Shown here piece after piece: positions 6,824 through 25,824 of a stretch of 26,596 bases of DNA. Origin of the DNA: a virus; the IMG/VR virus record IMGVR_UViG_3300037427_003166, positions 1 through 26,596 of that record. One strand, written 5' to 3'. The notes beneath the pieces are model-generated. The model worked only from the letters and a program-made list of their open reading frames with translations. It ran no database searches and had not been told where the DNA came from. A program made the position numbers and the translations under genes. Position 1 is the first letter of the stretch, and every line of letters begins with the position of its first letter.

Positions 6824-8521
6824 CTAGTCTTTGTCTCCACTCGGTGCTAATATATCAGGTCTTGGGTGCTTTATCATAGACGCTAGGAAACAGTAAGTCA
6901 TTGCGTGCAATGTATCGTCCGTAGTCCCAGGAGTCTTATTAATAATAGTCGTTCTTCGGGCCTCGTTGTACTCAGTAAATACAGAAAGCATGTCGCTTGC
7001 AAAGGGCGTCTCAAAAGTATCCCACCTGGGGAGCATGAATGTATCTTTCCTGTTTAACGCATTAATGACCGACATCAACGCTTCGGTTCTATTAACCATA
7101 AACCTTGCAAGCGTTTTGTCGAAGTATATGCGCCGCGTATTTACATACTGATATCTAGCGATACGTGTTATCCCAAAAGTTCGGATCAGCTTATCGTTGC
7201 GGTCAAACCCACCGCCGTAGTCAACGCCGATACATTCGCATTTAAATTGATGCACTAAGTTGACAATGTTTTTCATCATCACTTCTGGCTCAGCCTCAGG
7301 TCCAGAAAACTGCTTGAAGTAGATATATCTAAACTTATTACCGAAGTATTTCCCAACAGTAAGGACGGTGTAGGTGTTTTCTCCCGTTCCCCAGTCAATC
7401 CCCATGCAGCAGGCCCCGGTTCCTCGCGCATTGAGCTTTAGTGCTGTTTCTAGGTTATTCGGTTCATTGGAACAGTGTTCAATCAGAAGGTCTCGGGTAA
7501 TCGGCTTTTCACCAGAGTCGTAGCCAAGCCCAAGAACCTCGTTAAAGAACTGCGCCCTGCTGTAGCGCTTTTGTTTGTCTAGAATGTCGTTCCAGTTTAT
7601 CCACGGGGCGATCACCTGGGGGATCCTGTAACCCTCAAACGGAGTATTCACAGGCGGATTAGTAAGCCACTCCGGAGATCTCATGGATGCCCATTGCGCT
7701 CTTTGATGATCAGGATCTATAGACTTGCCGCACTTGTCGCAAATAAGCCCTACGGGGCCAATACTGTTCTCACCAATAACGTTCCACTTATTGCACGCCT
7801 CGCAGGGGATTACCCATTCGTTTTGGGTGGAAAACTGATTCCAGTAGTAGCTGATCGTATTGTCCAGGCTTTTGGGCGTGCCGGAATACCTAAGAATCTT
7901 AAACGGCGAGTGGGACAGGGACTCCTCAATAACAGGAATCACATCTGTCAAAATGTCCTGGATCTCATCTAGCAAGAGCATGTCTGCGGAGATACCACGA
8001 ACACGATCAGCGTGTAGGAAGGCGTATCTCAGCGTAATATCCGAACCGGTTACATACTTCTTGTACAATACGTTGTCTTTAGTCCCATCCCCACGAGTAA
8101 ACGCTTTAAGGGTTGACGAAAGCTCGGTAGGTGTAGCAATTCTATCCCTAGAGAATGTCTCAGTCTGCTGCTGCGTCGGGCTGACAAACAGTGATCTAAA
8201 GTGTCTGCGTAGCATTGAGTATGTTAGGATAATATTACCCAGGGTCGTACTTTTCTCAACCTGACGACCGCACTGAAGCAGAAGCCTCTTGGCGGGCGTG
8301 TCGTAGATAGGCACAAGGTACCTACGCCCCCTAAAGGAGAACTTCTCAAGCTCACCCAGGGAGGGGATGTTGAAGAAAGACCCAACAAACTCAGTAGGAA
8401 ACAACGACCGATCCGGGCTTTCCTCTGCTATTTCATACGGAAGCGACATAGCTAAAGACACCATCCATCGGCTTGCTGGCTCTCTTTCTAGAGCAGTCGG
8501 TAATGATTTTATCGAATACAC
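6824..8521 (-). CDS. terL: Terminase large subunit (ATPase/nuclease of the DNA-packaging motor)
   Basis: Pumps genomic DNA into the prohead and cuts it. Visible motifs, numbered from the GTG at 8521: a Walker A variant GRQVEKSTT (85-93), Walker B MLLLDE (181-186), a coupling-like RYSGTPKS (211-218), and a C-terminal RNase H-type nuclease with acidic residues in MGIDWGTG (D376), IGVDYGGG (D434) and TTDDTLHA (D535/D536). A four-cysteine zinc-ribbon-like insert (C240, C243, C261, C264) lies between ATPase and nuclease. The length of 565 aa is typical. The start is uncertain: GTG 8521 has no good ribosome site, and ATG 8464 or ATG 8449 (MSLPYEIA) are alternatives that would shorten an atypical N-terminus. 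No small terminase is recognised nearby. Confidence 0.93.
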   Translation of the reverse strand: MYSIKSLPTALEREPASRWMVSLAMSLPYEIAEESPDRSLFPTEFVGSFFNIPSLGELEKFSFRGRRYLVPIYDTPAKRLLLQCGRQVEKSTTLGNIILTYSMLRRHFRSLFVSPTQQQTETFSRDRIATPTELSSTLKAFTRGDGTKDNVLYKKYVTGSDITLRYAFLHADRVRGISADMLLLDEIQDILTDVIPVIEESLSHSPFKILRYSGTPKSLDNTISYYWNQFSTQNEWVIPCEACNKWNVIGENSIGPVGLICDKCGKSIDPDHQRAQWASMRSPEWLTNPPVNTPFEGYRIPQVIAPWINWNDILDKQKRYSRAQFFNEVLGLGYDSGEKPITRDLLIEHCSNEPNNLETALKLNARGTGACCMGIDWGTGENTYTVLTVGKYFGNKFRYIYFKQFSGPEAEPEVMMKNIVNLVHQFKCECIGVDYGGGFDRNDKLIRTFGITRIARYQYVNTRRIYFDKTLARFMVNRTEALMSVINALNRKDTFMLPRWDTFETPFASDMLSVFTEYNEARRTTIINKTPGTTDDTLHAMTYCFLASMIKHPRPDILAPSGDKD

Positions 8522-8681: not shown

Positions 8682-8826
8682 CGTCTTCCCACCCATCGCA
8701 CACAAAGTCTTCCCTAACAGGTGTGCGGTGCATAGAGCACTCCCCATCGCCCGAGTGGGCACGGCCAGCAGCGTACATAAACTGAGCACAGTTAAGACAC
8801 CGTTGGTCTGTTTGCGCTAATCGCAA
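8662..8826 (-). CDS. Small four-cysteine metal-binding-type protein, 54 aa
   Basis: The start overlaps the helicase 3' end by 35 bases. TTG 8826 is chosen because a CAGGT ribosome-site-like sequence lies 7 nt upstream; GTG 8844 is an alternative. The product has cysteines at 10, 13, 30 and 43 in a CxxC...C...C pattern, with GECSMHRTPVRE and DFVCDGWE around the last two. This spacing and the V-R-x-x-[FY]-V-C-D-x-W ending resemble small phage-encoded metal- or iron-sulfur-binding peptides I have seen described as rubredoxin- or HiPIP-like. The ligand is not decidable here. It lies between helicase and terminase in the operon. Confidence 0.65.
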   Translation of the reverse strand: MRLAQTDQRCLNCAQFMYAAGRAHSGDGECSMHRTPVREDFVCDGWEDVNGDEE

Positions 8827-10612
8827 GCTGGGTACCTGTCGCACGCCCAACTTGCTCAGCAGTTGGGACGGTGGGCTTTCTGGAGAAGAGTCTAGAAAAG
8901 ATTCCTGGCTTACTCTGCTGCTTTTGCTGCTTTTTGGGGTATACATATCGAACCCTCCCGTTCTTGTCTCTATACTTATAAATATGCTTAGGCGGCTCTC
9001 GGAAGGCCTTGTAGAACTGTTCCTGCTCTTTATGCTTCCGGCCTGCGACATCGTACATCCACTGGTCCGTTGTCTTAGGCACCTTTCTTCCGAACATCTT
9101 GCCGATGATCCCTGGGTGGGACGACTTCGGGACCACGCTCCTATACCTACGCGTGTCCACTGCCCGGTTCTTTTCTTCACGATGCTTCTGGCCGCCCAGC
9201 CGTCTTGCACGCGCTTCTGCCTGTAGAATACGCTGCGGGTTGAAGTGTCCATCCAGGGCGTAAAAAGCAGTGGAGTTCTTAAGGTCCAGGCCTTCAGCGC
9301 CCGCACCACTCAGAACAATTACTCGCTTCTTCCCGTCCTTGTACTCCTGAACGCCCTTCTGTCTGGTTATCCCAGTCACCTTCCTGCCACCGACCTCCTT
9401 GCCCTTGCCTACAAACAGTGCGTGATCAATGCCACGAGCCGTCAGCCCAGCAGAGAGGACATCAACCCCTCCCCGAACAAGGTTAGAATAGAGGACAACT
9501 TTGTTATCCGGCTTTGAAGCTAAATGAGACTCGGTGTCCGTCAGCAGCCTGTTCACCTTCGGGGTGATTCTGGACGATTTCTCAGGAGTGATGTCCTTGC
9601 GTCCCGTGTGGACTGAGTTTGCGACCTGTCTAGCGGCAGATATTTGCGCGAACAGGAACTCCGCCTCTCTGACTGAAACGTTTGGGTCGCTCCGAAGCAC
9701 CCGTTCTTTCAGGGGCCCGAGCTTGTCTAATGCCAGTTGGTACAGCTGGTACTGCTTGGGGGACATCTCAACATCAATGTTTTGGACATCTTTCCTGGGC
9801 ATAGTTTTGCCCTTCAGGTCGCCTGTCCGGACATGGTCGATCTTTGGCTGGGTACGAGCTTTAAGTTCCTCTACGTTCTTAAAGCCTTTGATTTTCTTTT
9901 TTCCGCCACCAAATCCTTTTGTGTAGCCAATGGTCTTGGTGAACCTTTTCCGAAATTCTGTTGGAGACATATCTCTGTTCTTCTCAGAGATAGTCATCAG
10001 CGTAGCCACTTCGCCTGGATTGTTATTAATCAGTGATGCTGTAAGCCCCATGAAGTTATGGGCGTACCTGCGGGCGGCGAGCGCTGCCTTAAACGTGGAG
10101 GCTCGCTCATTACGCGTCTTGTGGAACTCATCAAGGATGAGGGTGTCAGCCCCCGTTCTTTTCATGAATCCTTCAGGGTCTCGCCTGAACTGCGCGTAGC
10201 TGACAATCGTGTACGCTGCGCCACCTTCGCTACCGGGCCTAACATACCCAGCCTTCTTGGAGACCTCAGACGCTGAACCAACGACCTCGACAGAACTTGT
10301 CGTGAATTTCTGTACTCCGCCCTCAGCGAAGTTTGCTCTAAGCCCTGAGGGGCACACCACCAAGGCTTTCTTTGCTTTCCCTTCGTGACGGAGGCGCTCA
10401 AAGCCGTAGATAGACGCTGCGGTTTTTCCGGTCCCCATCTCGTGGGCCAGAATCATCTTGCCCTTGTTGGAGAACAGTCGGTCAATGGCTCTCTTTTGGT
10501 GCGGGTATGGGGCGAACCACTCCTTCATGGCAGGGATACCGGTGCCGTGAGGCTTCTTCTCCTTGCCAACGTCCGCAGCGGCGGATTTTATGAGGTAGTC
10601 GCCCAGGCTCAT
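8792..10612 (-). CDS. SNF2-like superfamily 2 DNA helicase/translocase, 606 aa
   Basis: ATP-dependent double-stranded DNA translocase or helicase of superfamily 2. Motifs in order: PHQKRAIDRL (Q-motif-like, 37-46), Walker A EMGTGKT (58-64), motif Ia VVCPSGLRANF (85-95), DEFH box (161-164), motif III GLTAS (189-193), then the second RecA domain with VVLYSNLVRGG (372-382), motif V AGAEGLDL (437-444) and motif VI QAEARARRLGG (464-474). A basic, Gln/Lys-rich C-terminal tail follows. The start overlaps the upstream stop by one base (TAATG). SNF2-type helicases are usually found among replication genes; here the gene lies in the structural and packaging operon directly upstream of terminase, so a role in packaging, ejection or remodelling of injected DNA is possible but unproven. 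Confidence 0.9.
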   Translation of the reverse strand: MSLGDYLIKSAAADVGKEKKPHGTGIPAMKEWFAPYPHQKRAIDRLFSNKGKMILAHEMGTGKTAASIYGFERLRHEGKAKKALVVCPSGLRANFAEGGVQKFTTSSVEVVGSASEVSKKAGYVRPGSEGGAAYTIVSYAQFRRDPEGFMKRTGADTLILDEFHKTRNERASTFKAALAARRYAHNFMGLTASLINNNPGEVATLMTISEKNRDMSPTEFRKRFTKTIGYTKGFGGGKKKIKGFKNVEELKARTQPKIDHVRTGDLKGKTMPRKDVQNIDVEMSPKQYQLYQLALDKLGPLKERVLRSDPNVSVREAEFLFAQISAARQVANSVHTGRKDITPEKSSRITPKVNRLLTDTESHLASKPDNKVVLYSNLVRGGVDVLSAGLTARGIDHALFVGKGKEVGGRKVTGITRQKGVQEYKDGKKRVIVLSGAGAEGLDLKNSTAFYALDGHFNPQRILQAEARARRLGGQKHREEKNRAVDTRRYRSVVPKSSHPGIIGKMFGRKVPKTTDQWMYDVAGRKHKEQEQFYKAFREPPKHIYKYRDKNGRVRYVYPKKQQKQQSKPGIFSRLFSRKPTVPTAEQVGRATGTQLAISANRPTVS

Positions 10613-15636: not shown

Positions 15637-17103
15637 CTACCCCTTCTTTGCCTTCACACTGGCTGACGCAATGTCCGACTGTGTGGGTGGTGTGATAACA
15701 GGTCCACTGGGGCCCCAAGCGGTCATGCAGGAAAAGCTTGTGGTAAGCCAAGTTGCCAGATCGTCCAAAAGAACTACCGATTGATCCGCGCCGCCTTGTC
15801 CTTTTTTACCTAGCTGCACCTCAGCCTCTCCTTCGATGTAAACCTCTTTGGGGGACTTTAGGTGATAGCCCTCCATGCACTCTATAACCATATTCTTAAC
15901 AAACGCCTTGAAATCATTATCCTGTAATAATTCAATTATGGACTGTTTGTTTTCCTTGGTTTCCTTGCTACCGCCCTTGTCTCCGTACACGATCTTAATG
16001 CCTTCACGGACATTTGCATATACGGTCTGGGATACTTCGGCGTGAATATTTCCACGCGTAAAGATTAGATTATCACCATCCCTGTTAAGTTGGAATACGT
16101 ACCTAACGCGTTCCTTGTCATCTACACCATCATCATGCTGGTATATCGTGAAACTTAGAACGCCCTTTTCTTCTTTTATAATGCCCTTGTCACCAGAAGA
16201 CGCCTTGACAGGTTTTTCTACTCTCGGGTCCGAGGACGCCTTGTGGTCCGCCTGACCGAACACATGCTCAGGGTCTTCTTCGGGATCAAGCTGTTCCGCC
16301 GTAAGCCTTCCAACCCTAAGCTCAACTGTGTACTTGCCTTCAGTGACATCTTCTTGGCACAGGTCTTTAATATTGTACTTAACAAGAACAGGGGTCTTCT
16401 CAGCGACCTCTAAGACCTCGCTGGGGATATTGTCGTCTTTTAGGTCTTTAGCGAGATACCCGCCCTGTTGCGTGGGCGTCTCGCCCTCCACTAAAATAGC
16501 GTGCCCCCAGTCGATCTCCCCTACAGGGCTTACTGCTTGGTATCTCTGAAAGTAATCTCTTATGACGTTCTCGACCGGCAGATAGATGCGTTGCGCTAAT
16601 GACGTAGACCCGATTTGGACCATCCCACCCCTTCGAACGATAACGCTGTTACCGTCCAGGGTGCCCAGGAAAATATCCCCAGGCTCCAGGTGCCCACGAG
16701 CGCCCTTAAAGCTTGGTCCCTTGTCTGCTGTTTCCGTTATCAGTTCCGCTGTTGAGCCCTCAACGGCTGCGTACTCTTCAGGCACTATGGTAACGGGGTT
16801 GTTAATAAACCCTAAGACAAAAGATGTCCCATCCTGGCACTGGCACACGTAACAGTACGCGTCTCTCTCCGGCATAGCGTACATGCCGCCGCGATGATCT
16901 CGGTGGCATAACGGCGAAGCGAACGGGAGGTCAACCAACGCCTTATGCGTGTAGGTCGTCATCACATCGACAGTGTACTCTTCCGGGTTAACGTTAGTTA
17001 TCTGAGCGAGCTGAATGCTTGCGGGCCCGTCCGATTGGGCTCCTGTTTTTGTATATGAGTCCTCAAACGACCCCTCCGGGTTTGCGCTGGTTAGATCATC
17101 CAT
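15637..17103 (-). CDS. Probable baseplate/tail spike protein (gpV/gp5-like), 488 aa
   Basis: Likely central spike or baseplate hub component that pierces the host envelope. The N-terminal region (about 30-110) looks like the OB-fold of gpV/gp5/VgrG spikes: a strand IQLAQITNV, then ASPLCHRDHRGGMYAMPERD and YCYVCQCQDGTSFVLGFI, matching the usual 'G-x-Y-x-x-P-E-x-D' turn followed by two strands. Later parts are strand-rich and repetitive (IFLGTLDGNSVIVRRGGMVQ; IHAEVSQTVYANVREGIKIV), compatible with a beta-helical needle. Its start overlaps the polymerase stop (ATGA). Assignment is by pattern only; a contractile tail is implied but not shown. Confidence 0.6.
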   Translation of the reverse strand: MDDLTSANPEGSFEDSYTKTGAQSDGPASIQLAQITNVNPEEYTVDVMTTYTHKALVDLPFASPLCHRDHRGGMYAMPERDAYCYVCQCQDGTSFVLGFINNPVTIVPEEYAAVEGSTAELITETADKGPSFKGARGHLEPGDIFLGTLDGNSVIVRRGGMVQIGSTSLAQRIYLPVENVIRDYFQRYQAVSPVGEIDWGHAILVEGETPTQQGGYLAKDLKDDNIPSEVLEVAEKTPVLVKYNIKDLCQEDVTEGKYTVELRVGRLTAEQLDPEEDPEHVFGQADHKASSDPRVEKPVKASSGDKGIIKEEKGVLSFTIYQHDDGVDDKERVRYVFQLNRDGDNLIFTRGNIHAEVSQTVYANVREGIKIVYGDKGGSKETKENKQSIIELLQDNDFKAFVKNMVIECMEGYHLKSPKEVYIEGEAEVQLGKKGQGGADQSVVLLDDLATWLTTSFSCMTAWGPSGPVITPPTQSDIASASVKAKKG

Positions 17104-20100
17104 CAGTAGGGGCCCTCCTTACCTTTCCCAAACTCTGCCGAATAGGCGATGCCTGGGGTTGGGTGCACTCCATGTATATCAGATTCCCAGCCCTCGTTGG
17201 CGGCCCTAATAAATGTCTCCTTTAACTTCCGGTATTGAAGCCTTGCCAGCCAGTCCGTTGTTTGGTCTAGGGGAAGGGTCTCAATTCCACGAAGCGTTGG
17301 CTCAACCACCAACGGCTCCTTCAGCTTCCCAGATCTATTTAGGGCATTAGCGTGTGATATAGAGATGTAGTCATTTTTGATAAAATCAGACCCGCCAGGG
17401 TTAGTTACTCTGCCGAGATTAGTTATCGCCTTAGTCACCACTTCGATGTTTCGGCGCTTAATGCCCTCTGCTTTATAAACCCTATTAATCTCATCAGCGA
17501 TGTATGCCTGTACGGTATCTACGTTGGTTTTAGATAGAAGATCCCGTGGGTCAATTACACCACTGGAAATCTGCTGCCCCTTCTTCACCTTGGAGCCCTT
17601 AGTTACCTTCAGGGTTCTCCCGGCAGGGACGTAAATATCCTCATTCCCGATTGTCATATCAAAACCACCCACGGGGCTTTCTTTGATACTGGAAACAGTC
17701 GCGGTTGCTGGGGAGAGAACAGCAGCGTTGGGGAGAGTTGCTGGCATCTTGAGTAGTTGGCTAATGCGATCTATCCCACCAACGACTCCGCCGGATGAGC
17801 CAGCGACACCACCAGTATGAAAGGTTTTCATAGACAACTGGGTCCCCCGCTCTCCCAGCGCGGTACCGGCTATAACGCCAATATTCGTACCTTTTGAGAT
17901 CGGGAGTCCGTTGTCTTGTAGCCCGTAGCACTTTGAGCACAGCCCTTTTTTAGCCTCACACTTGAGAGGGGACTTAACGACAATCTTAGACACCTTAGCG
18001 CTCTTTATCCGTGACACTAGGGCAGGAGTTAGTGCGGTGTTGGCCGAAACTCGTAACCCTTTAGCGCTTATAGGCTTAGCCGTAAATCTATCAACAAGGT
18101 CTGAGTCAGCGGCATCTAGGGCGATGCCCTTAGTTGTCCCGCAGTCATCTGCGGTGACGATGTACGACATCATTGTATTTGCAAGCTGTTTGTTCAAAGC
18201 TCCAGGCTTTTGCACAGACTGGACTTTTTCAATAAGGCCTTTTCGAGCGCCGGAGGAGGCAACCCAATAGTCGGATGACCGCAACCCTTCCGAGTATGAT
18301 CGATCAACAGGCACTGGGATGACGCGCCCTTTAGCGTTCTCCAACAGCATCGGACCAATAAGCATCTGCTGCAACTGAGCCCAGGCGGGCTTCACCCCAG
18401 CTTTCTCCATCGTCCTCAACTTGTTGCCTTTCTTGTCCAAGATCTTTTTCGCCTCTGTGGATAAATCCTGTGTGACCTCCGTGTACAGATCTATGATCTT
18501 CTTTTCTGCGGCCTCCGGGGATATGAGCTTCATCCGCTCTTGCTTGCGGATAACCGCCTCCTTAGCGTGCGCCCCCTTCATCTTCTTTTCCCGAAGATCT
18601 CTCATCGCGTCAAAGTCTCCGAGGTTGAACGAGAACCCGATATTGTAAGCGTGCCCAAACCCAAGATCTTTAATCTTATCAACCGCTACCTGAAACTCGG
18701 CTGGCGACTTGGTAGCAATGCCACGAAGGACTGCCTGGAGATTCTTCTTCCCCATAACCATGTCTGGATCAGTAAGAAGCTTGTCTGAACGGACTTTAGA
18801 GGGCAGCGCATTATTGAATAATAATCTACCTGCCGTAGTCTTTTTCCCGCCAACAGAAACAACGTCAGACATAGCGGTGTCCCCCGCTTTCGCAGAGGCT
18901 ATCGCTTCCTTTTCCGAGCCAAAGCTCTTCTTGGTATTCTTCCCCATCTGCGTAAGCAGGAACAGTCCAAGCTGCCCCTCCAATGTGGGCTGGTACATGA
19001 CCTTTCCAGTGGCGGGGTTAAACAGGTTCTTGGACGGGAGTAGTTTTTCCGCTTCGTCGATAGACTCCTGGGACACAGGAAGAAACACAGCCATCGTGTC
19101 GCCGTCAAAGTCGGCGTTAAAGCCGCCGGTCACCAGGGGGTGGATATGAATAGATGATTCGTCGTGAAGCTTGGGGCGGAAGGCCATAATCCCAAACTTA
19201 TGCAGGACAGGGTCTCGCTTAAAGAACACGGGCCGCTTCTTTACGGCAACCTCAAGCGCTCTATCCGCAAGGGGCGTTTTCTTCTCGATCTCCTCACGCG
19301 CCCTAAGGGGCGTGTACCCCATTCTAACAAGCTCTTTCACCACAAATGGTCTGTATATTTTCATGGCCCCTTTTCTAGGAAGGCCGATTTCATCCAAGTG
19401 CAGATCCATGTTGGGAACAATCACCGACCGCATAGAAATGTCCTGCTTTCGATCCAAGATGCGCTTATGAAAAAAGCTCTGCTTGGGCGACTGCCTGCCG
19501 GACAGGATGGTGAGGATTCCGGGTGGGCGGGCTTGCCCGTCCGTCATGGTGGCCGACTCAGAGGGCGTGGATGTCCCCATCAACGCATCAACAGCGTCAT
19601 ACAGGTCGCCTCGAAGGGCGGAGATGGCTTCCTCGGGAAGGACCCCGGTGGACTCTTTGAGCTTTTGGCTGAGGATGGCGATGTCTCTGTAAAGCATGTT
19701 TGTGCCATCGATGTTTAAGTCACCGCCCTCCATAGCCGTGATTGGTCGGAATACGGGGGGTAGAACCGGAACAACTGATGTCGTGTACGCCTCTTTTGGC
19801 GAAAGACCATTTTTCTTAAGCATGAGAAGATACTTGATCTTCTTGTTCAGCTTATCCAAATTGTTCCTACGAGCTGTTTTTATGTCTTTCTTGGCGCTCG
19901 CTAAATCTTTATCTACGTTGATGCTACCCAGCGCCCTCGTTAATGCCTCGGGCCCCGTCTGAATGCCATCGGCTGCTGGCACAACATCCCCGTTCTCATC
20001 AAACCCCAGAGAGCCATCGACAATGCCGTCGTACTGCTTCCCGGTGATACCGAGTAATGATCTGACTGACTTCTCAAACATCGGGTTGGGCATGGACATC

Positions 20101-23100
20101 CCAAGCACCATATGTGCCCAGTGCTTCCCGCCGGGACCTCCGGTCACGGTCTCATCAAAAAGACCGCCCTTTTCAGGCTTCAGGTCTTTCCCTCTGATCA
20201 CCTTGCTTCCGTCTTTGATCTCCCCGTTAGACGCTTCTTTAATCTGCTTTTCCGTGAGAGGACTGACAACTAACCCGTTGCCCTCCTTCTCCACGTTGAG
20301 GCCTAGTCCCTGCATGTACGCAAGGAACTTTTCATATGCGAACGAGGATTTTGGTGCCGGTAAGATCGCCCCTGTCTGCACAGCTGTCCAAACTTCGTCT
20401 TGCGCCTTATCGCTCTTGTAGGTCAGTGCCTCTCGTATATTTGAGGTCGCGCCGTGTGCAAGCATTGCATATAGACCTAGTTCCCCAAACCTCTGAGCAG
20501 CACCGGACTCCCCGCCGCCCTTAGGGACGAGGTTGGCATCATAGTCGTGCCCGTACCCATGCGCCCTTGCTCGAAGCTTCTTATCCACCTGATGCATTAA
20601 CTTAAGAGTGTAGTGCTGGCCTACCAGTACCTCTCCCAGACTCTTTCCAGTCTCGGGGTCAAATAGTTCAGTTGTCTCAGACACACCCTCTTCGGCCAAA
20701 ATCTGCTTAACTCTTTCTTGGTAACCAAGTTCCCTAGTGTGCTCTTTAACGGTGATTTCTTTAGTGTCACCACTTGTAGTTTTAACGGTGCGCTTATGCT
20801 CACGTACGGTAACGACTTTCTTGCTGTCATTAGATTGAAAGTTCTCAACGGCATAAGGCTCCCCGCGCTTTTTAGCCACCTTGCCCAGACTGGTCTCCAG
20901 AACCTGTCCCAGGTTGATTCGTCCAGGAACCCCCGATGGATTTAAGATCAATTGGACGGGGTTGCCGTCAGCGTCCCTCGGCATTTCCTCATCAGGAACT
21001 ACGGCTGTAATCACACCCTTGTTACCGTGTCTCCCAGTAAGCTTATCGCCAACATCTGCCGATTCCTCGGTCTTGACGTACGCAACAATCTCGCGACCAT
21101 TCCTAACAACATCCGTTACGACGCCAGTATACGGTTTGTCCCAAGTCACAGACTTGTTCTTGTAGGGCCTTATTAGTGACTTATGGATCCCCTTAAGAAG
21201 TAGCTGCTCCTTAGAGGGCTCCGTCTTTTGCAGGACTGTCATTAATACGTCACCTGGGTCAACTTTTTGACCCTTCTTTATCACGCCATCTTCATCGAGC
21301 TTTGCGGCGTTATCCTCGGTCACGTACCCAGGGAAATTTGCCCTGAACTTCTTCAGACCAACTCCCATGGATTTCTCGACATACGCCCTGTTTTTATGGA
21401 GGTGCTCACTGATAAGCTTATTTGAAGCGGTCTCAGATATAACGATACCATCCTCAAACACTAACCCCTTATATGGTAGATAGGCGACGCGTAGGTTTGT
21501 CCCCATCGCCAACGTCCCATTCTTAGTGAAGTTCGTATCCGCCACAGCTTGACCGGCCTTAACCTTGTCCCCCTTTGCAACCGTTGGGGTGCTTGAAATA
21601 AAGGCCTTCTTGTCGTTTAGTGGGAAGTTGTCATAGAGGGGAACCTCGTGCTTCTCACCGTCGCTCCCGCGAACCACAATCTTGTTCTTCCCGACGGTCT
21701 CAACCGTCCCGGAGACGCGGCTTGTGTGGCTCGTAAAAGACCCCACAATCTTCTCCCAGGTCTTGTACTTCTCACTAGGGTTTCCGGATGTGACCTGAAC
21801 CAAGGGCTCCTCACGGTCTTTTAATGAGATCGCCTGCTCTAAGTGGCGGGTGGCCATACCGGCGCGGTTGGCTTGATCCGACGGAAGGAACGGCACTAGG
21901 TTAGCTGTTATCGAGAACAGCTGCTTAGGGGTCTTTATGATGTAATCGACTTCGGAGGGGCTGATCTTTTCAGGGTCGCCTCCATCCTTCCTGACTACCG
22001 TAACCAGATCACTGATAGCCTTGGGCGCTTTGCCACTAAAAGAATACTGATCAGGGAACGCGACCGCTTTCCCGACAAGCTCTCCAGGGCTCCGTGCCGC
22101 GAACTTTTTCTCCTTAACGTCGTACACCTGTATCTTTGGCGTGGTGCCGTGCTTCTCTACCCCAAGAGAGAGGTGGCCACTGATGCCAGACCTCTTTCCT
22201 TCAGGAGTGTGTACCGGATCAATAAACCCTAGGTAACTAGAGTCGATCAGCTTGGCGTCTTCGGACACGGCGTTTTCGCTCACGATACCGCCTTGCCCCA
22301 TGATTGTCGTACGGAGAAACCCGCCCATCATGTCCACAGGATTAACCTGGGATGTCTGCTGCGACAGGCTCGTTGACGTAAAGAACGTCTTAATGGGGAT
22401 GTTGAAGATATCAGACGTGATAATAGATCTGACGCTGTCTCTCCGGTCCACATTGTTTCCGAGCTTGTATTTGATCCTGCGCTGAGAGTTCTGAATTCGT
22501 TCCGGAATATGGTCATTTATTGACCAAAGCTCCTTAAACCGTAGAGAGTCTCGGTTATCAACATCCCTCTCTCCCCTATTAACGCCTAATAACTTAGACG
22601 ATGTAGCCAGGAGAGCGTCCCCATTTACCGAGTCAAACGCTGACCCCAGGGTGATTTTGGTTGTGTCAGGGAGCAGCTTGGTACCAGCGTAAGCTTCCTT
22701 AATTATACTTGCCGCTTCAGTATCGTTCGCCGGGGCTGCCCCGCGTGACAATACTTTGGCCAGCTTTACAACCTCGCCGCGTTTCTTGTCGGCCATGCTC
22801 CGTGCGTACAGGGTGTCACCCCACGCCTCCCTGATTTTATCATCAGGAACGCCTAGCGCTTGAAGGACCGGGAGAAGCTGCACGTTCGAGGACCCATAAG
22901 TGACCAGAAACCGGCGCTTAGACGGGTCAAATCCCATGCGGAATCCACGGCCCTCGGCAAGGTTAAACTGGCTTTCAAGCTCCCCGTTGGCTTTTCTTCG
23001 GGTATACACGCCTGACTTCAGACGCCACTGGTTGTCTACTTGGTATTCTGTTCCGTCTACGATGTAGCTGTATCGGCGGGTTATCTTTGGGAGGCTCGCG

Positions 23101-23372
23101 ACCTTGAGTCTTTTAGCCGTATCTATGGTTTTACCGGTCTCTTTGTTTATTAAAGAGAAGTCCCCGTAAAGGCCTTGCGCCCACGTCCTACCTCTAAGTC
23201 TCGCGTTCTTTTGGCTACTGATATCATCTAGGTCTACTTCCCCGCCAGAGTAGATTTTGTCTGCGACCAAGGCATGTTTCTTACCTTCCAAAGGAAAGAA
23301 GCTACTAATTTGCTCTATGGTCCCGTCTTCGAGGGCTTTCATCACCCTCTGGGGATCTAGAATATTCGACAT
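17103..23372 (-). CDS. rpoBC: Single-chain fused RNA polymerase beta/beta-prime, 2089 aa
   Basis: DNA-dependent RNA polymerase of the multisubunit (bacterial) type with both large subunits in one chain. Beta part (about 1-1030): rif-region-like LSQQTSQVNP with Q338 at the E. coli Q513 position, HTPEGKRSG, FEDGI (E640/D641), GDK K777 and GRHGNKG (780-786), QRFGE (960-964) and a C-terminal anchor. Beta-prime part: GLF at 1070-1072, switch region SMRSVIV, catalytic NADFDGD (1419-1425; D1421, D1423, D1425), bridge helix GARKG (1708-1712), zinc site C1744/C1805/C1812/C1815, trigger loop TQLSMKTFH (1844-1852). The N-terminal beta-prime zinc finger is absent. GGAGG lies five bases before the ATG. 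The stop overlaps the spike start. E. coli beta plus beta-prime total about 2750 aa, so this is a reduced but complete core. Confidence 0.96.
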   Translation of the reverse strand: MSNILDPQRVMKALEDGTIEQISSFFPLEGKKHALVADKIYSGGEVDLDDISSQKNARLRGRTWAQGLYGDFSLINKETGKTIDTAKRLKVASLPKITRRYSYIVDGTEYQVDNQWRLKSGVYTRRKANGELESQFNLAEGRGFRMGFDPSKRRFLVTYGSSNVQLLPVLQALGVPDDKIREAWGDTLYARSMADKKRGEVVKLAKVLSRGAAPANDTEAASIIKEAYAGTKLLPDTTKITLGSAFDSVNGDALLATSSKLLGVNRGERDVDNRDSLRFKELWSINDHIPERIQNSQRRIKYKLGNNVDRRDSVRSIITSDIFNIPIKTFFTSTSLSQQTSQVNPVDMMGGFLRTTIMGQGGIVSENAVSEDAKLIDSSYLGFIDPVHTPEGKRSGISGHLSLGVEKHGTTPKIQVYDVKEKKFAARSPGELVGKAVAFPDQYSFSGKAPKAISDLVTVVRKDGGDPEKISPSEVDYIIKTPKQLFSITANLVPFLPSDQANRAGMATRHLEQAISLKDREEPLVQVTSGNPSEKYKTWEKIVGSFTSHTSRVSGTVETVGKNKIVVRGSDGEKHEVPLYDNFPLNDKKAFISSTPTVAKGDKVKAGQAVADTNFTKNGTLAMGTNLRVAYLPYKGLVFEDGIVISETASNKLISEHLHKNRAYVEKSMGVGLKKFRANFPGYVTEDNAAKLDEDGVIKKGQKVDPGDVLMTVLQKTEPSKEQLLLKGIHKSLIRPYKNKSVTWDKPYTGVVTDVVRNGREIVAYVKTEESADVGDKLTGRHGNKGVITAVVPDEEMPRDADGNPVQLILNPSGVPGRINLGQVLETSLGKVAKKRGEPYAVENFQSNDSKKVVTVREHKRTVKTTSGDTKEITVKEHTRELGYQERVKQILAEEGVSETTELFDPETGKSLGEVLVGQHYTLKLMHQVDKKLRARAHGYGHDYDANLVPKGGGESGAAQRFGELGLYAMLAHGATSNIREALTYKSDKAQDEVWTAVQTGAILPAPKSSFAYEKFLAYMQGLGLNVEKEGNGLVVSPLTEKQIKEASNGEIKDGSKVIRGKDLKPEKGGLFDETVTGGPGGKHWAHMVLGMSMPNPMFEKSVRSLLGITGKQYDGIVDGSLGFDENGDVVPAADGIQTGPEALTRALGSINVDKDLASAKKDIKTARRNNLDKLNKKIKYLLMLKKNGLSPKEAYTTSVVPVLPPVFRPITAMEGGDLNIDGTNMLYRDIAILSQKLKESTGVLPEEAISALRGDLYDAVDALMGTSTPSESATMTDGQARPPGILTILSGRQSPKQSFFHKRILDRKQDISMRSVIVPNMDLHLDEIGLPRKGAMKIYRPFVVKELVRMGYTPLRAREEIEKKTPLADRALEVAVKKRPVFFKRDPVLHKFGIMAFRPKLHDESSIHIHPLVTGGFNADFDGDTMAVFLPVSQESIDEAEKLLPSKNLFNPATGKVMYQPTLEGQLGLFLLTQMGKNTKKSFGSEKEAIASAKAGDTAMSDVVSVGGKKTTAGRLLFNNALPSKVRSDKLLTDPDMVMGKKNLQAVLRGIATKSPAEFQVAVDKIKDLGFGHAYNIGFSFNLGDFDAMRDLREKKMKGAHAKEAVIRKQERMKLISPEAAEKKIIDLYTEVTQDLSTEAKKILDKKGNKLRTMEKAGVKPAWAQLQQMLIGPMLLENAKGRVIPVPVDRSYSEGLRSSDYWVASSGARKGLIEKVQSVQKPGALNKQLANTMMSYIVTADDCGTTKGIALDAADSDLVDRFTAKPISAKGLRVSANTALTPALVSRIKSAKVSKIVVKSPLKCEAKKGLCSKCYGLQDNGLPISKGTNIGVIAGTALGERGTQLSMKTFHTGGVAGSSGGVVGGIDRISQLLKMPATLPNAAVLSPATATVSSIKESPVGGFDMTIGNEDIYVPAGRTLKVTKGSKVKKGQQISSGVIDPRDLLSKTNVDTVQAYIADEINRVYKAEGIKRRNIEVVTKAITNLGRVTNPGGSDFIKNDYISISHANALNRSGKLKEPLVVEPTLRGIETLPLDQTTDWLARLQYRKLKETFIRAANEGWESDIHGVHPTPGIAYSAEFGKGKEGPY

Positions 23373-23454
23373 TTAATCCTCCGTGCTAACCCGGCCTCCA
23401 TATTAGGTATAAGAATTATGGGTAATACTGCCCTAAACAAACAGGAGAGTTTAT
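23373..23454. promoter_or_regulatory. Divergent intergenic region between polymerase and small plus-strand genes
   Basis: 82 bp separating the polymerase start (minus) from the first plus-strand mini-gene. It must carry signals in both directions unless the plus genes are silent. It contains GGAGG for the polymerase, AGGAGAG for the mini-gene, and an AT-rich centre (TATTAGGTATAAGAATTATG). No -35/-10 pair matches sigma70 well on either strand. The minus strand holds GCAGTATTA (23431-23423), similar to GCTGTATTA before the 658-aa gene. Confidence 0.45.
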
Positions 23455-23562: not shown

Positions 23563-23793
23563 ATGAGTACCCGCGCACCAAAACCCATTGCTTGCGACGT
23601 TGCCAGCATGTGGTGCAACGAGCCAAAGAACTGCGGCGAGTGTATCCACTTTCTTGAAAACACTGGTTGTGTTGCGTGGGTATGTTCTGTTTGCATTAAA
23701 CAAGTGGACCATCCTTCCGCATTCTACCAACGTGGTAGATGCGACCGGTGTAACAAGAAGTCCGCAATGTTAATAGCAATTCAAAACACATGA
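23563..23793 (+). CDS. Plus-strand cysteine-rich zinc-ribbon-like protein, 76 aa
   Basis: ATG 23563 with AGAGAG upstream. Nine cysteines in 76 residues, including three CxxC pairs (24/27, 41/44, 60/63) and others at 11, 18 and 36, plus nearby histidines (29, 50). This suggests one or two zinc-binding knuckles. The basic, aromatic surroundings (PSAFYQRGRC) would allow nucleic-acid or protein binding. The TGA stop abuts the portal stop with no base between (TGA|TTA on the plus strand), so plus and minus transcripts must overlap if either passes its end. Being divergent from the polymerase, it could be a polymerase partner or regulator, but that is speculation. An alternative minus-strand frame in the same bases looks like a shadow. 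Confidence 0.7.
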   Translation: MSTRAPKPIACDVASMWCNEPKNCGECIHFLENTGCVAWVCSVCIKQVDHPSAFYQRGRCDRCNKKSAMLIAIQNT

Positions 23794-25824
23794 TTAGATC
23801 TGCGCCCTATCAGGGTTCGCTCTAGATGGAAGCTTCTCGGGTAAAGGCTGCATAGTCTTTATTCCAGCGCCGGAAAGAGCGTTGTTAACAAGCATATATA
23901 GATCCGGGCTACTGGCGCGTAATTGCGCCATAGCTCGGTATCTATCTACTTCATTCATCTTTTTTATCTGTGAGGAGACACGCTTAGCTTGGGCGAACAT
24001 GTCTACCATTTGGCCGGTATTTGCTGCCCCCATAGGGCTCTGATCCGCCCCTGCGGTAGCCTCTTCTGGGAGAGGTGCGCCCTGTTCTGGAGATGGCTGG
24101 CCGCCGCCCTGTTGATCGGGCGGAGGCGCAGCACCTTCTGGTCCCGGTTGCTGCGCTGCTTCCGGGGGAGCCCCCTCCTGAGGCGGTCCTTGTTGTGGTT
24201 GACCCTCTTGCGGCTGACCCTGTTGGGGTTGGCCGGGAGGAGGGGCCATTCCAGAGGCTTGCTGTTGCTGCTGGGCCTCCATCTGTAATTCTTGAGACTG
24301 GATCTGGTATCTAGTCTGGATAAGCATTGCTTCGCCCTGAGATTCAGCGTTGGCGATCATGCCCTCACGTTGTGATCTATTTAGCTTCTTACCCTCTTCG
24401 TGGATAAGCTCTTGCTCCGTGTCGAAGTTGAAGTCCCTCGACTCCAAGAAGCTTCTTCGGCTGATCATGCCCGCATTAGCGAGGTTCATATCAAAAGAGG
24501 CTCTCTGAATGTCATCAGCCATCTTGAAGGGCTTAAACTTGAGAGTCATCCTGGGCAGATCCAAGAATGCGCAAACGCGATCCCTGACAAATTCTACAAG
24601 CCTGAGCATGTCCTGCCGGTTTCCCAAGAACTCGTTCTCAAGGGCGCGTAGGTTAACGGATGCCCCAGAGTATTGCTGCTCTCCGTAGAAAAACCCTGTG
24701 GGGACGCCCATGCCTGCGATAATCTGGTCGTTATAGACTCGCAGCTCTTGGTGAAGGAGGAGGGATTTTCCCTGCCCGCCGATCATTTGGTACCCAATCG
24801 GCACAGGCATGACGGGGATGTGGTTGTTGTCCATCCTCCACTTTTTGATCTGGCCTGAGACCTCGTCCTGCCAATCCTGTAGATTAACGTGGGCGTACGG
24901 ATTGTTCCCGTCCGTTGTGACTTGTGGGAACATTACTCGCATAGGAACAACGTGTTCCATTGCGACAGCTTCCTGCGCTTTCCGCAAGATCTGTAAGAAA
25001 AAGATGTCCTTCAGGACCGGGAGAATCAGAGGGGCTCCCCAGCCGCTATCCGAAGGGTCTCTAGAGACAGAGGCGCGTCGGCAGTGAAAAAGCTTAGAGC
25101 TTTCCAGGAGAATAGACCGCTTCTTTTTGAGCGACTCAATAAACACCTGTGGGATCGTTTCGATCATTGCCGGTTTGCCAAGCATGATGTCGTTTCTCAT
25201 GTGCCTCGGCATGTTGTAGTAATACTGGCTCTGCCCTGTTACCTCATTGTACTTAACCGTGATGCTTTTTGGATTCCATCTAATCAGCCGTATCTGCTGG
25301 GCCGACTTTATTGGCTCATCCTTCACATCGGCGAGGCCTACGTGCATACATTTTTCACAGGTCATATGGAACGCGAAGCTCTTCCATTTGTACTTAACTT
25401 CACGGGCAGGGTTAGCGTCACCACAGTTGCGGCATTTTAGAACCTTCTTGAACGGGAAAGATACGGACACAAAAGCGTTTCCATACGTGTACCTATCCAG
25501 GTTTGTTTCAATCAGAAACTGCCTTAAAAGGAACTGTCCCTCGAACATGCTCCGATACATCTCAACAAGACCTTCGTTATCATCTTCGTAGATGAGGTCT
25601 GTGATCGGGTATGTAGCGAGCTTGCTTGTCACCGCGCTGATCAACGGGTTGGTTAGCTGGTAGTAGAGGCACCAATCGAAAGTTTCTTTAATTGTCTTGG
25701 GCAGGTAGTTCTGGGCGACATCGAAAAAGGGGCTAGGATAAAACGACTCTGGCTTCCCAATAGTCTTTGCTCTGGATCTCGCGCCTAAAGAATATCGACC
25801 CGTTCTATTGTTTGAATACGCCAT
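23794..25824 (-). CDS. Portal protein with disordered Pro/Gln-rich C-terminus, 676 aa
   Basis: Dodecameric portal at the head vertex through which DNA is packaged and ejected. Portal-like features: N-terminal YYQLTNPLISAVTSKLATYP, TYGNAFVSVSFPF, the long central helix region, and IAGMGVPTGFFYGEQQYSG followed by LRALENEFLG, a pattern typical of phage portals. Unusual insert: a CxxC...CxxC zinc-knuckle-like loop (C131, C134, C156, C159). The last ~150 residues are a low-complexity Gln/Pro/Gly/Ala tail before a short helical end, longer than in most portals. ATG 25824 with AGGGAG upstream. The stop meets the convergent plus-strand gene exactly. Confidence 0.85.
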   Translation of the reverse strand: MAYSNNRTGRYSLGARSRAKTIGKPESFYPSPFFDVAQNYLPKTIKETFDWCLYYQLTNPLISAVTSKLATYPITDLIYEDDNEGLVEMYRSMFEGQFLLRQFLIETNLDRYTYGNAFVSVSFPFKKVLKCRNCGDANPAREVKYKWKSFAFHMTCEKCMHVGLADVKDEPIKSAQQIRLIRWNPKSITVKYNEVTGQSQYYYNMPRHMRNDIMLGKPAMIETIPQVFIESLKKKRSILLESSKLFHCRRASVSRDPSDSGWGAPLILPVLKDIFFLQILRKAQEAVAMEHVVPMRVMFPQVTTDGNNPYAHVNLQDWQDEVSGQIKKWRMDNNHIPVMPVPIGYQMIGGQGKSLLLHQELRVYNDQIIAGMGVPTGFFYGEQQYSGASVNLRALENEFLGNRQDMLRLVEFVRDRVCAFLDLPRMTLKFKPFKMADDIQRASFDMNLANAGMISRRSFLESRDFNFDTEQELIHEEGKKLNRSQREGMIANAESQGEAMLIQTRYQIQSQELQMEAQQQQQASGMAPPPGQPQQGQPQEGQPQQGPPQEGAPPEAAQQPGPEGAAPPPDQQGGGQPSPEQGAPLPEEATAGADQSPMGAANTGQMVDMFAQAKRVSSQIKKMNEVDRYRAMAQLRASSPDLYMLVNNALSGAGIKTMQPLPEKLPSRANPDRAQI
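24180..24240 (-). repeat. In-frame 15-bp near-repeats encoding GQPQQ/GQPQE in the portal tail
   Basis: Imperfect 15-bp units (plus-strand form GGTTGACCCTCTTGC, then GGCTGACCCTGTTGG and partial copies) encode a run of Gly-Gln-Pro-Gln-[Gln/Glu] pentapeptides in the disordered tail of the portal. The period is a multiple of three, so copy-number changes would keep the frame. Confidence 0.65.

Follow-up and report, generated by a model that had tools for sequence, protein, structure and literature searches.

A single-chain, bacterial-type RNA polymerase core in tailed phages, with a companion sigma-family gene and a candidate promoter class

The window analysed here is the entire IMG/VR virus record IMGVR_UViG_3300037427_003166 (26,596 bases), and it contains a long minus-strand frame lying between a portal gene and a baseplate/spike-like gene (Table 1). 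The frame starts with ATG, runs through 2089 codons with no internal stop and encodes the beta domains followed by the beta-prime (beta') domains of a bacterial-type RNA polymerase (RNAP). It is the gene of a DNA-dependent RNAP core in which beta and beta' form one chain and which, judged from its sequence, is presumably active. An identical protein (100%) is encoded in a longer IMG/VR record of 148,364 bases (G004). A first-pass annotation of the window had placed the uninterrupted frame correctly, apart from omitting its strand, and had located the motifs to the residue (GRHGNKG at 780, QRFGE at 960, NADFDGD at 1419); the bridge helix and trigger loop that it listed are found at 1707 and 1851.

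The description of this protein as a full-length, bacterial-like, single-chain core within a phage structural block is borne out by Pfam, NCBIfam, Foldseek and the phage genes on either side. Along the chain the Pfam domains follow the order Rpb2_3, Rpb2_6, Rpb2_7, Rpb1_1, Rpb1_2, Rpb1_3 and Rpb1_5, with E-values of 8.6e-58 for Rpb2_6, 1.4e-26 for Rpb1_2 and 9.5e-24 for Rpb1_5; the Rpb2_7 and Rpb1_3 matches, as well as a stray Peptidase_M23 match (residues 1882-1936), are below the curated cut-offs. The NCBIfam models for fused beta/beta' (E 1.3e-177), rpoC (2.7e-164) and rpoB (1.5e-126) all match without reaching their curated cut-offs. A profile built from 40 relatives finds bacterial beta' in the PDB with an E-value of 2.1e-181. 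AlphaFold models of the separate halves have a mean pLDDT (predicted local distance difference test) of 81.4 for beta and 80.8 for beta', and their best solved matches in Foldseek are bacterial beta (E 7e-69, template-modelling (TM) score 0.70) and bacterial beta' (E 2.8e-66, TM 0.65). The beta' half was modelled in isolation, and its Foldseek and VIA matches have a high root-mean-square deviation (about 20 A), with a Z of 34.8 over 949 residues. Together, Pfam, Foldseek and the alignment reveal both barrels, the DFDGD triad and the GRHGNKG region of beta, which places the protein among the cellular-type two-barrel RNAPs; a lack of the catalytic barrels, which would have spoken against the annotation, is not seen in the model of either half. 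The flap, the clamp-helix region, the trigger-loop histidine and the bridge helix also align with cellular beta and beta'. At the junction of the two parts neither the profile matches nor the sequence reveal an extra linker domain.

Table 1. Features of the window, with the RNAP gene and its parts first
Feature	Positions	Strand	Basis or remark
Single-chain RNAP core, beta fused to beta', 2089 aa	17103..23372	minus	Uninterrupted frame; Pfam, NCBIfam and PHROG matches
Beta part, about residues 1-1028	20289..23372	minus	Pfam Rpb2_3/6/7; NCBIfam PRK00405 (rpoB) to residue 1028; AlphaFold model and Foldseek
Beta to beta' junction, about residues 1029-1045	20238..20288	minus	Approximate, from profile matches and sequence
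Beta' part, about residues 1046-2089	17106..20237	minus	Pfam Rpb1_1/2/3/5; PDB profile; AlphaFold model
Beta motif GRHGNKG, residues 780-786	21015..21035	minus	Aligned with cellular beta
Beta motif QRFGE, residues 960-964	20481..20495	minus	Alignment with cellular sequences
Site of missing beta' N-terminal Cys4 zinc-binding domain, about residues 1070-1087	20112..20165	minus	Alignment
Catalytic NADFDGD, residues 1419-1425	19098..19118	minus	Alignment with cellular beta'
Bridge-helix SGARKG, residues 1707-1712	18237..18254	minus	Alignment with cellular beta'
Second beta' zinc site, Cys 1744, 1805, 1812, 1815	17928..18143	minus	Aligned with four cellular cysteines
Trigger-loop FHTGG, residues 1851-1855	17808..17822	minus	Alignment with cellular beta'
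Promoter-like GGTATAAG, pointing away from RNAP gene	23406..23413	plus	GGTATAA element in close relatives
Portal protein, upstream neighbour	23794..25824	minus	32% to annotated portal of Salmonella phage Arash, E 1.8e-90
Baseplate/spike-like protein, downstream neighbour	15637..17103	minus	Same gene type downstream in relatives
Terminase large subunit (TerL)	6824..8521	minus	PF05876; phrog_675 E 2.5e-69
SNF2-type helicase	8792..10612	minus	PF00176 E 8.5e-19
Cysteine-rich, zinc-ribbon-like 76-aa frame	23563..23793	plus	Antisense, between portal and RNAP genes

The chain departs from cellular enzymes at several points. The N-terminal Cys4 zinc-binding domain of beta' is replaced by a short turn in the alignment with cellular beta'. 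When its motif was sought from residue 850 up to the catalytic motif, it was found in none of 122 complete relatives, whereas all 25 cellular controls have it. The motif is likewise missing from the two split and the three deepest fused sequences, and is kept in all five separate-subunit phage beta' proteins (TM30, Carin-5, GN1, Vibrio 1.031.O and Va2). The C-terminal element of the chain corresponds to one that in cells lies near omega. Several positions of the rifampicin pocket (by E. coli numbering) differ from cellular residues, and therefore rifampicin insensitivity of the phage enzyme may be guessed at from the sequence. The exact string ADFDGD occurs in 120 of the 122 complete relatives and is interrupted by an insert in the other two (L045 and L144). 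In-frame inserts of 338-517 residues are present within the fused RNAP of 11 of 63 complete relatives (L040, L045, L049, L057, L060, L073, L050, L051 and L061-L063), at four sites: after residues 392, 778 and 789, and within NADFDG|D at 1424. Proteins longer than 2350 residues make up 18 of the 122. All eight inserts tested match LAGLIDADG_3, seven of them over the cut-off, and four of the eight match Intein_splicing below it; they are likely inteins with homing endonucleases.

The first-pass annotation had considered this architecture rare, which does not hold. A first IMG/VR scan gave 72 loci and a second the best 80 of 128; once 14 second copies of the same contig had been dropped, 137 contigs were left, with 122 complete genes and 15 cut by a contig end. 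RNAP is fused as one frame in all 122 complete relatives, which form 103 clusters at 90% identity. Since the scans keep best matches, this applies down to about 27-28% identity and not to all phage RNAPs. Two of the 122 (L139 and L154) are open only when TGA counts as a sense codon: in each, several TGA codons but no other stop lie in frame within the RNAP gene, and transfer-messenger RNA (tmRNA) genes are found at both loci, which suggests that these are TGA-recoded phages. Cultured relatives at about 31% identity are the Vibrio phages D69, D148 and D181 and Salmonella phage Arash (32%), and cultured phages carry a re-split version of the enzyme. In Arash and D69 the chain is broken after the catalytic loop, the first gene comprising beta and the N-terminal part of beta' and the second the C-terminal part of beta' (gp206/gp216 in Arash); in D181 a homing endonuclease lies between pieces of beta as well. 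Phage-type RNAP contigs also occur inside bacterial metagenome-assembled genomes (MAGs): L171 (Deltaproteobacteria) and L238/L323 (uncultured Bacillus), in which RNAP is fused and complete, and the short contig L170. Two such MAGs (G047 and G048) also contain an ordinary rpoC, and these phage-type contigs may therefore be phage DNA or misbinned.

Quick trees were built with bacterial sequences, the set of cellular rows being free of Helicobacter, Wolbachia and archaeal members; the joint tree used LG+G4 without a mixture. In the beta' tree (58 rows) a starred branch (98*) separates off the 25 bacterial sequences, and the 28 phage sequences, fused and split, group together elsewhere (100*). The beta tree (54 rows) sets 24 cellular sequences apart (100*) and groups the fused (23 rows) and split (2 rows) phage sequences (100*). 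Both halves thus fall outside the bacterial sequences tested, and neither passes the equivalog cut-offs. A cellular rpoBC clade with cellular genes at its flanks, which the first-pass annotation had named as the outcome contrary to its view, is not what the trees and the phage neighbours show. Where the deepest fused members belong (L162, L163 and L323; 2244-2329 residues, L162 and L163 at about 27-28% identity) is unsure: they group with the phages in the beta' tree (100*) and the joint tree (91), and the beta tree puts them with cells at only 75, a single phage clade being not rejected by the approximately unbiased test (p-AU 0.288). The split pair falls inside the fused group in the joint tree (support 73), and the simplest reading is that one fusion at the base was followed by a re-split elsewhere in the chain in the Arash/D69 line. 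Three further records filed as Acinetobacter, Staphylococcus and Enterococcus phages (L290, L168 and L291) group with bacterial rpoB/rpoC and look like bacterial contigs.

The surroundings of the gene are conserved. In all 113 unique contigs with a portal match, the portal homologue lies upstream of the RNAP gene and on its strand; it was found in 102 of the 110 contigs having at least 4.5 kilobases upstream. Of 108 unique contigs with a match to the baseplate/spike-like protein, 107 carry its gene downstream, again on the RNAP strand, as do 95 of the 106 having at least 7 kilobases downstream. In the window the RNAP stop overlaps the start of this gene by one base (TGATG). The protein has no Pfam or PHROG match, and 'spike' is the label of the first-pass annotation. 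The window also encodes a head-maturation-protease-like protein, identified by profile matches. The RNAP gene belongs to a phage transcription system that is genuine, widespread and coherent, and is probably a variant of the known deep phage RNAP lineage.

The first-pass annotation had considered transcription with and without host alpha and sigma; no alpha gene was found, and these phages mostly carry a sigma-family gene of their own. Alpha (PF01000) and omega (PF01192) were each found in none of 41 records, many of which may be partial, with Arash deposited as a complete genome, as against 13 of 14 and 14 of 14 control genomes, respectively. A divergent sigma-70-family gene encoding about 300 residues, called here the companion sigma, has a profile homologue in 35 of the 41 records (some of them close to identical), with Arash (gp10), D69 and D181 among them; G004 retains just its final 63 model positions, at the contig end. 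Its best match is on the strand of the RNAP gene in all 35. Region 3 is over the Pfam cut-off in four of four proteins; weak matches to region 2 (three of four) and region 4 (one of four) are below the cut-off and in the right order. The protein matches the PHROG sigma family over residues 128-298 (E 1.3e-13), and a PDB search at E up to 0.1 gives 31 matches, every one a sigma factor (best 4.5e-5). Region 3 and the overall sigma profile place it in the sigma-70 family. Profiles of regions 2 and 4 alone miss the companion sigma or see it weakly in the close relatives of the window: region 2 was found in 8 of 36 records and in none of eight close relatives, and region 3 in six of seven close relatives at E up to 0.05, three of them over the cut-off. 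In Arash the companion sigma has a region 2 match (E 2.2e-4) and is surrounded by proteins annotated as structural. A 309-residue protein considered as sigma-like was set aside as ParB-like on reading of its sequence. T7-type polymerase (PF00940) was found in none of 31 records; the controls were also without a match, and this result carries no weight.

The promoter-like element of the window recurs at the same place in related phages. GGTATAA, pointing away from the RNAP gene, lies at most about 55 nucleotides upstream of its start in all ten close relatives examined. Upstream of G004 genes, GGTATAAG occurs more often than expected (7 against 0.17), and 13 of 23 GGTATAA sites fall between genes in spite of some 90% of the contig being called coding; 12 of these 13 share a G at the position fourteen bases beyond their first G. 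In Arash, GGTATAAG is the top 8-mer upstream of genes on the strand opposite to RNAP (the other strand), with 8 of 58 within 150 nucleotides versus 0.10 in shuffles and 7 of 58 within 120 nucleotides versus 0.03 expected, and is found upstream of none of the 31 late-strand genes. The other strand is that of the DNA replication genes in Arash and D69. Similar words are found elsewhere: the top other-strand word is GTTATAAG in D69 and G044 and GTATAAGA in G045, and GGGATAAG and GGCATAAG are among the top words in G028 and G042, respectively. If a count reached by at most 1 of 200 shuffles is taken as enriched, eight of the 11 fused-clade phages show other-strand enrichment of the wider pattern G-N-N-ATAAG (G004 7/44, G007 9/51, Arash 9/58, D69 19/85, G042 5/50, G028 8/45, G032 4/49 and G044 11/47) and the control phage Carin-5 (2/66; 150 of 200 shuffles) does not. 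This pattern was widened with the data in view, and therefore a clean test is given by GGTATAAG in Arash alone. None of the 12 phages (the 11 and Carin-5) shows other-strand enrichment of TATAAT, a plain sigma-70 (-35/-10) scan of G004 upstream regions gave no excess over shuffles, and no late-promoter word common to G004, G003 and G007 was found. The late strand has words of its own in two phages, TAAAATAT in D69 (7 of 21 upstream regions versus 0.2) and TATAAT in G045 (12 of 29 versus 4.9), which are possible late promoters.

A deep phage clade with cell-like beta and beta' has been published as mReC (multi-subunit-RNAP-encoding Caudovirales; Weinheimer and Aylward 2020, PMC7481178). Like the present RNAPs, as far as the text consulted goes, the mReC enzymes align with those of cells and are surrounded by phage hallmark genes; they form a deep clade apart from cells. 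They are described as beta and beta' subunits; the main text of PMC7481178 does not mention a beta/beta' fusion, and the stem 'fus' occurs in it twice, both times on crAssphage. The capsid PF07068 and TerL PF03237 reported there were not found in the proteins tested here: the capsid candidate of G004 has no PF07068 match at E 0.1, and at a threshold of E 0.01 the window TerL matches PF05876 alone, not PF03237. The present clade is separate from 24-25 bacterial sequences and is set beside mReC by description, not by named mReC sequences. One fused relative (L130) comes from metagenome 3300017989, the source of mReC1 and mReC3. At the base of the mReC clade lies RNAP1 of rep_vMAG_21, reported in the accessible portion of PMC10159854 as a 'gene encoding RNAP' with beta and beta prime. 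This may be a fused gene; it is compared here by description only, and that portion mentions no sigma or promoter.

Other phage enzymes resemble the present one in part. Arash shares with the fused-chain phages the portal-RNAP order, the sigma type and the early motif, and D69 the sigma and a like motif, and both differ in having a split chain that in D181 is further broken. The core of phiKZ-group RNAPs is divided into four to five polypeptides, as opposed to one chain here. Split phage two-barrel RNAPs also lack alpha and omega, but consist of at least four or five polypeptides and have no sigma. Crass-like phi14:2 gp66, YonO and P23-45 gp64/gp96 are likewise single-chain phage polymerases, gp96 being a virion enzyme; in the part of PMC10770324 consulted, the similarity of these highly divergent enzymes to cellular subunits is mostly limited to the DxDxD region, and 'derivatives with fused' barrels are listed, unnamed, among enzymes of multisubunit type. 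In contrast to such single-chain enzymes, the present chain keeps the bacterial domain set and has full-length matches. The phage beta and/or beta' of Carin-5, GN1 and Rhizobium TM30 have cellular similarity, but are separate subunits and distant in the trees; in Carin-5 a sigma gene adjoins, and the RNAP genes are on the replication strand. The RpoBC proteins of Helicobacter and Wolbachia are beta-beta' fusions too, but cellular, and the zinc domain is missing in the phage chain. PRK09603 and PRK14844, the models for these two proteins, are among the best NCBIfam models for the phage RNAP, with scores far below their cut-offs. The suggestion that the system was possibly undescribed is only partly right: a deep phage clade is known, and a family of phage RNAPs that are cell-like, fused and equipped with a sigma and a promoter class of their own is not described in the literature searched, in so far as its text was available (including PMC7481178, PMC10159854, PMC7598289, PMC7824862, PMC13282480 and PMC10770324; supplements, preprints and most subscription papers aside), which is not proof of absence.

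The reading favoured here, with a probability of roughly 0.58, is that the fused core and the phage sigma form a two-protein holoenzyme that is made late, packaged in the virion and reads early promoters in the next cell. In cells, an alpha dimer brings beta and beta' together. The fusion would take over this role by joining the two, and therefore core plus phage sigma would suffice as a two-protein holoenzyme, a part of the proposal that is quite probable. A sigma with a strong region 3 would read an extended -10-type element. Core and sigma would be made late, from the structural strand, and the enzyme would be packaged with the virion and then used on the early promoters of the next cell. 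Late manufacture and packaging are proposed because the core (at the portal locus) and the sigma are encoded on the structural strand and the candidate promoters lie mainly on the other; on this gene order and promoter placement, the chances of packaging are about even. Phage N4 carries a virion RNA polymerase, and the mode proposed here, early promoters being read by a packaged enzyme, is that of N4 and P23-45. More tentatively, and at somewhat less than even odds, a whole lineage of tailed phages might start infection from conserved G-N-N-ATAAG promoters by means of a virion-borne holoenzyme of fused chain and sigma with no host subunit; it may keep an early RNAP branch devoid of alpha, omega and the beta' zinc domain.

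Several observations weigh against this proposal. The pattern G-N-N-ATAAG was widened after inspection of the data and has a single control phage; it shows no clear other-strand enrichment in G003 (2/48), G018 (0/48) and G045 (6/56; 26 of 200 shuffles), and is present on the late strand in G032 (4/66; 1 of 200) and G018 (3/51; 2 of 200). The control pattern G-N-N-ATAAC is itself somewhat high in Arash (4/58 versus 1.0; 4 of 200). The companion sigma profile has no match in 6 of 41 records (G012, G016, G031, G040, G044 and G045), two of which, G044 and G045 (the deepest fused, L162 and L163), yet have a related promoter-like element, and two weaker second matches (G038 and G043) are on the other strand. 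The clamp-helix stretch of the phage chain is unlike that of cells. The Arash record labels many proteins as structural, the RNAP genes not being among them. The word TGGTATAAG resembles the bacterial extended -10 (TGN-TATAAT), and host RNAP could read such an element.

This last point leads to the foremost alternative, a non-virion enzyme: host RNAP would read the extended -10-like early promoters, and the fused enzyme, made during infection, would transcribe late genes with this or a second sigma, starting at promoters of another kind. The different late-strand word TAAAATAT of D69 and the second sigma-like gene of Arash and D69 fit such a division of labour. That gene, with region 2 over the cut-off, lies apart from the late-block sigma (L075 5522-6559; L074 4858-5634). 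An enzyme encoded only in the late block, however, could not start that block by itself; TATAAT is not enriched on the other strand, and phages infecting Salmonella, Vibrio and unknown hosts share a similar element whose last base is G. A non-virion enzyme is considered unlikely, though by no means negligible. In a hybrid enzyme the phage core would borrow a host sigma and perhaps alpha, for which the clamp-helix and flap regions are present; phage alpha and omega genes were not found in the 41 records, and six of these lack a match to the companion sigma. Its co-occurrence in the other 35 and the unlike clamp-helix stretch make a hybrid improbable. The position between portal and baseplate-like genes would also suit an inactive or purely structural RNAP relative kept in the virion, but this is very improbable given the family-wide conservation of the catalytic elements, with ADFDGD exact in 120 of 122 and bearing an insert in the other two. 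An assembly chimera of cellular rpoBC with phage DNA, suggested by the cell-like sequence, can be dismissed as next to impossible in view of the fusion in 122 contigs (103 clusters), the kept portal and baseplate-like neighbours, the re-split form in cultured phage genomes and trees that place the phage RNAP outside cellular sequences.

If the two-protein holoenzyme proposal is correct, a minimal bacterial-type transcription machine would be specified by two genes, one for the core chain and one for the sigma, and would help in asking what purpose alpha, omega and the beta' zinc domain serve. Since the core, the sigma and the candidate promoters have been identified and Arash and D69 are available in culture, transcription start is directly testable.

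Some smaller features of the locus deserve mention. Between the portal and RNAP genes, downstream of the GGTATAAG element, lies the 76-residue antisense frame, with counterparts in L002, L003 and L004 and a related one in L015. A 104-residue frame in the same interval was considered as a candidate omega and rejected: L002 has a similar open frame, but in most of the other relatives the longest sense frames are different ones, and the 104-residue frame mirrors the antisense cysteine-rich frame seen in 4 of 10 relatives. The SNF2-type helicase of the window was located in 19 unique contigs, and in Arash a helicase gene adjoins that of the C-terminal part of beta'. Judging from the analogy with RapA, the helicase may recycle the phage RNAP; RapA-like recycling has been proposed for phiKZ-group phages in the accessible text of PMC7824862.

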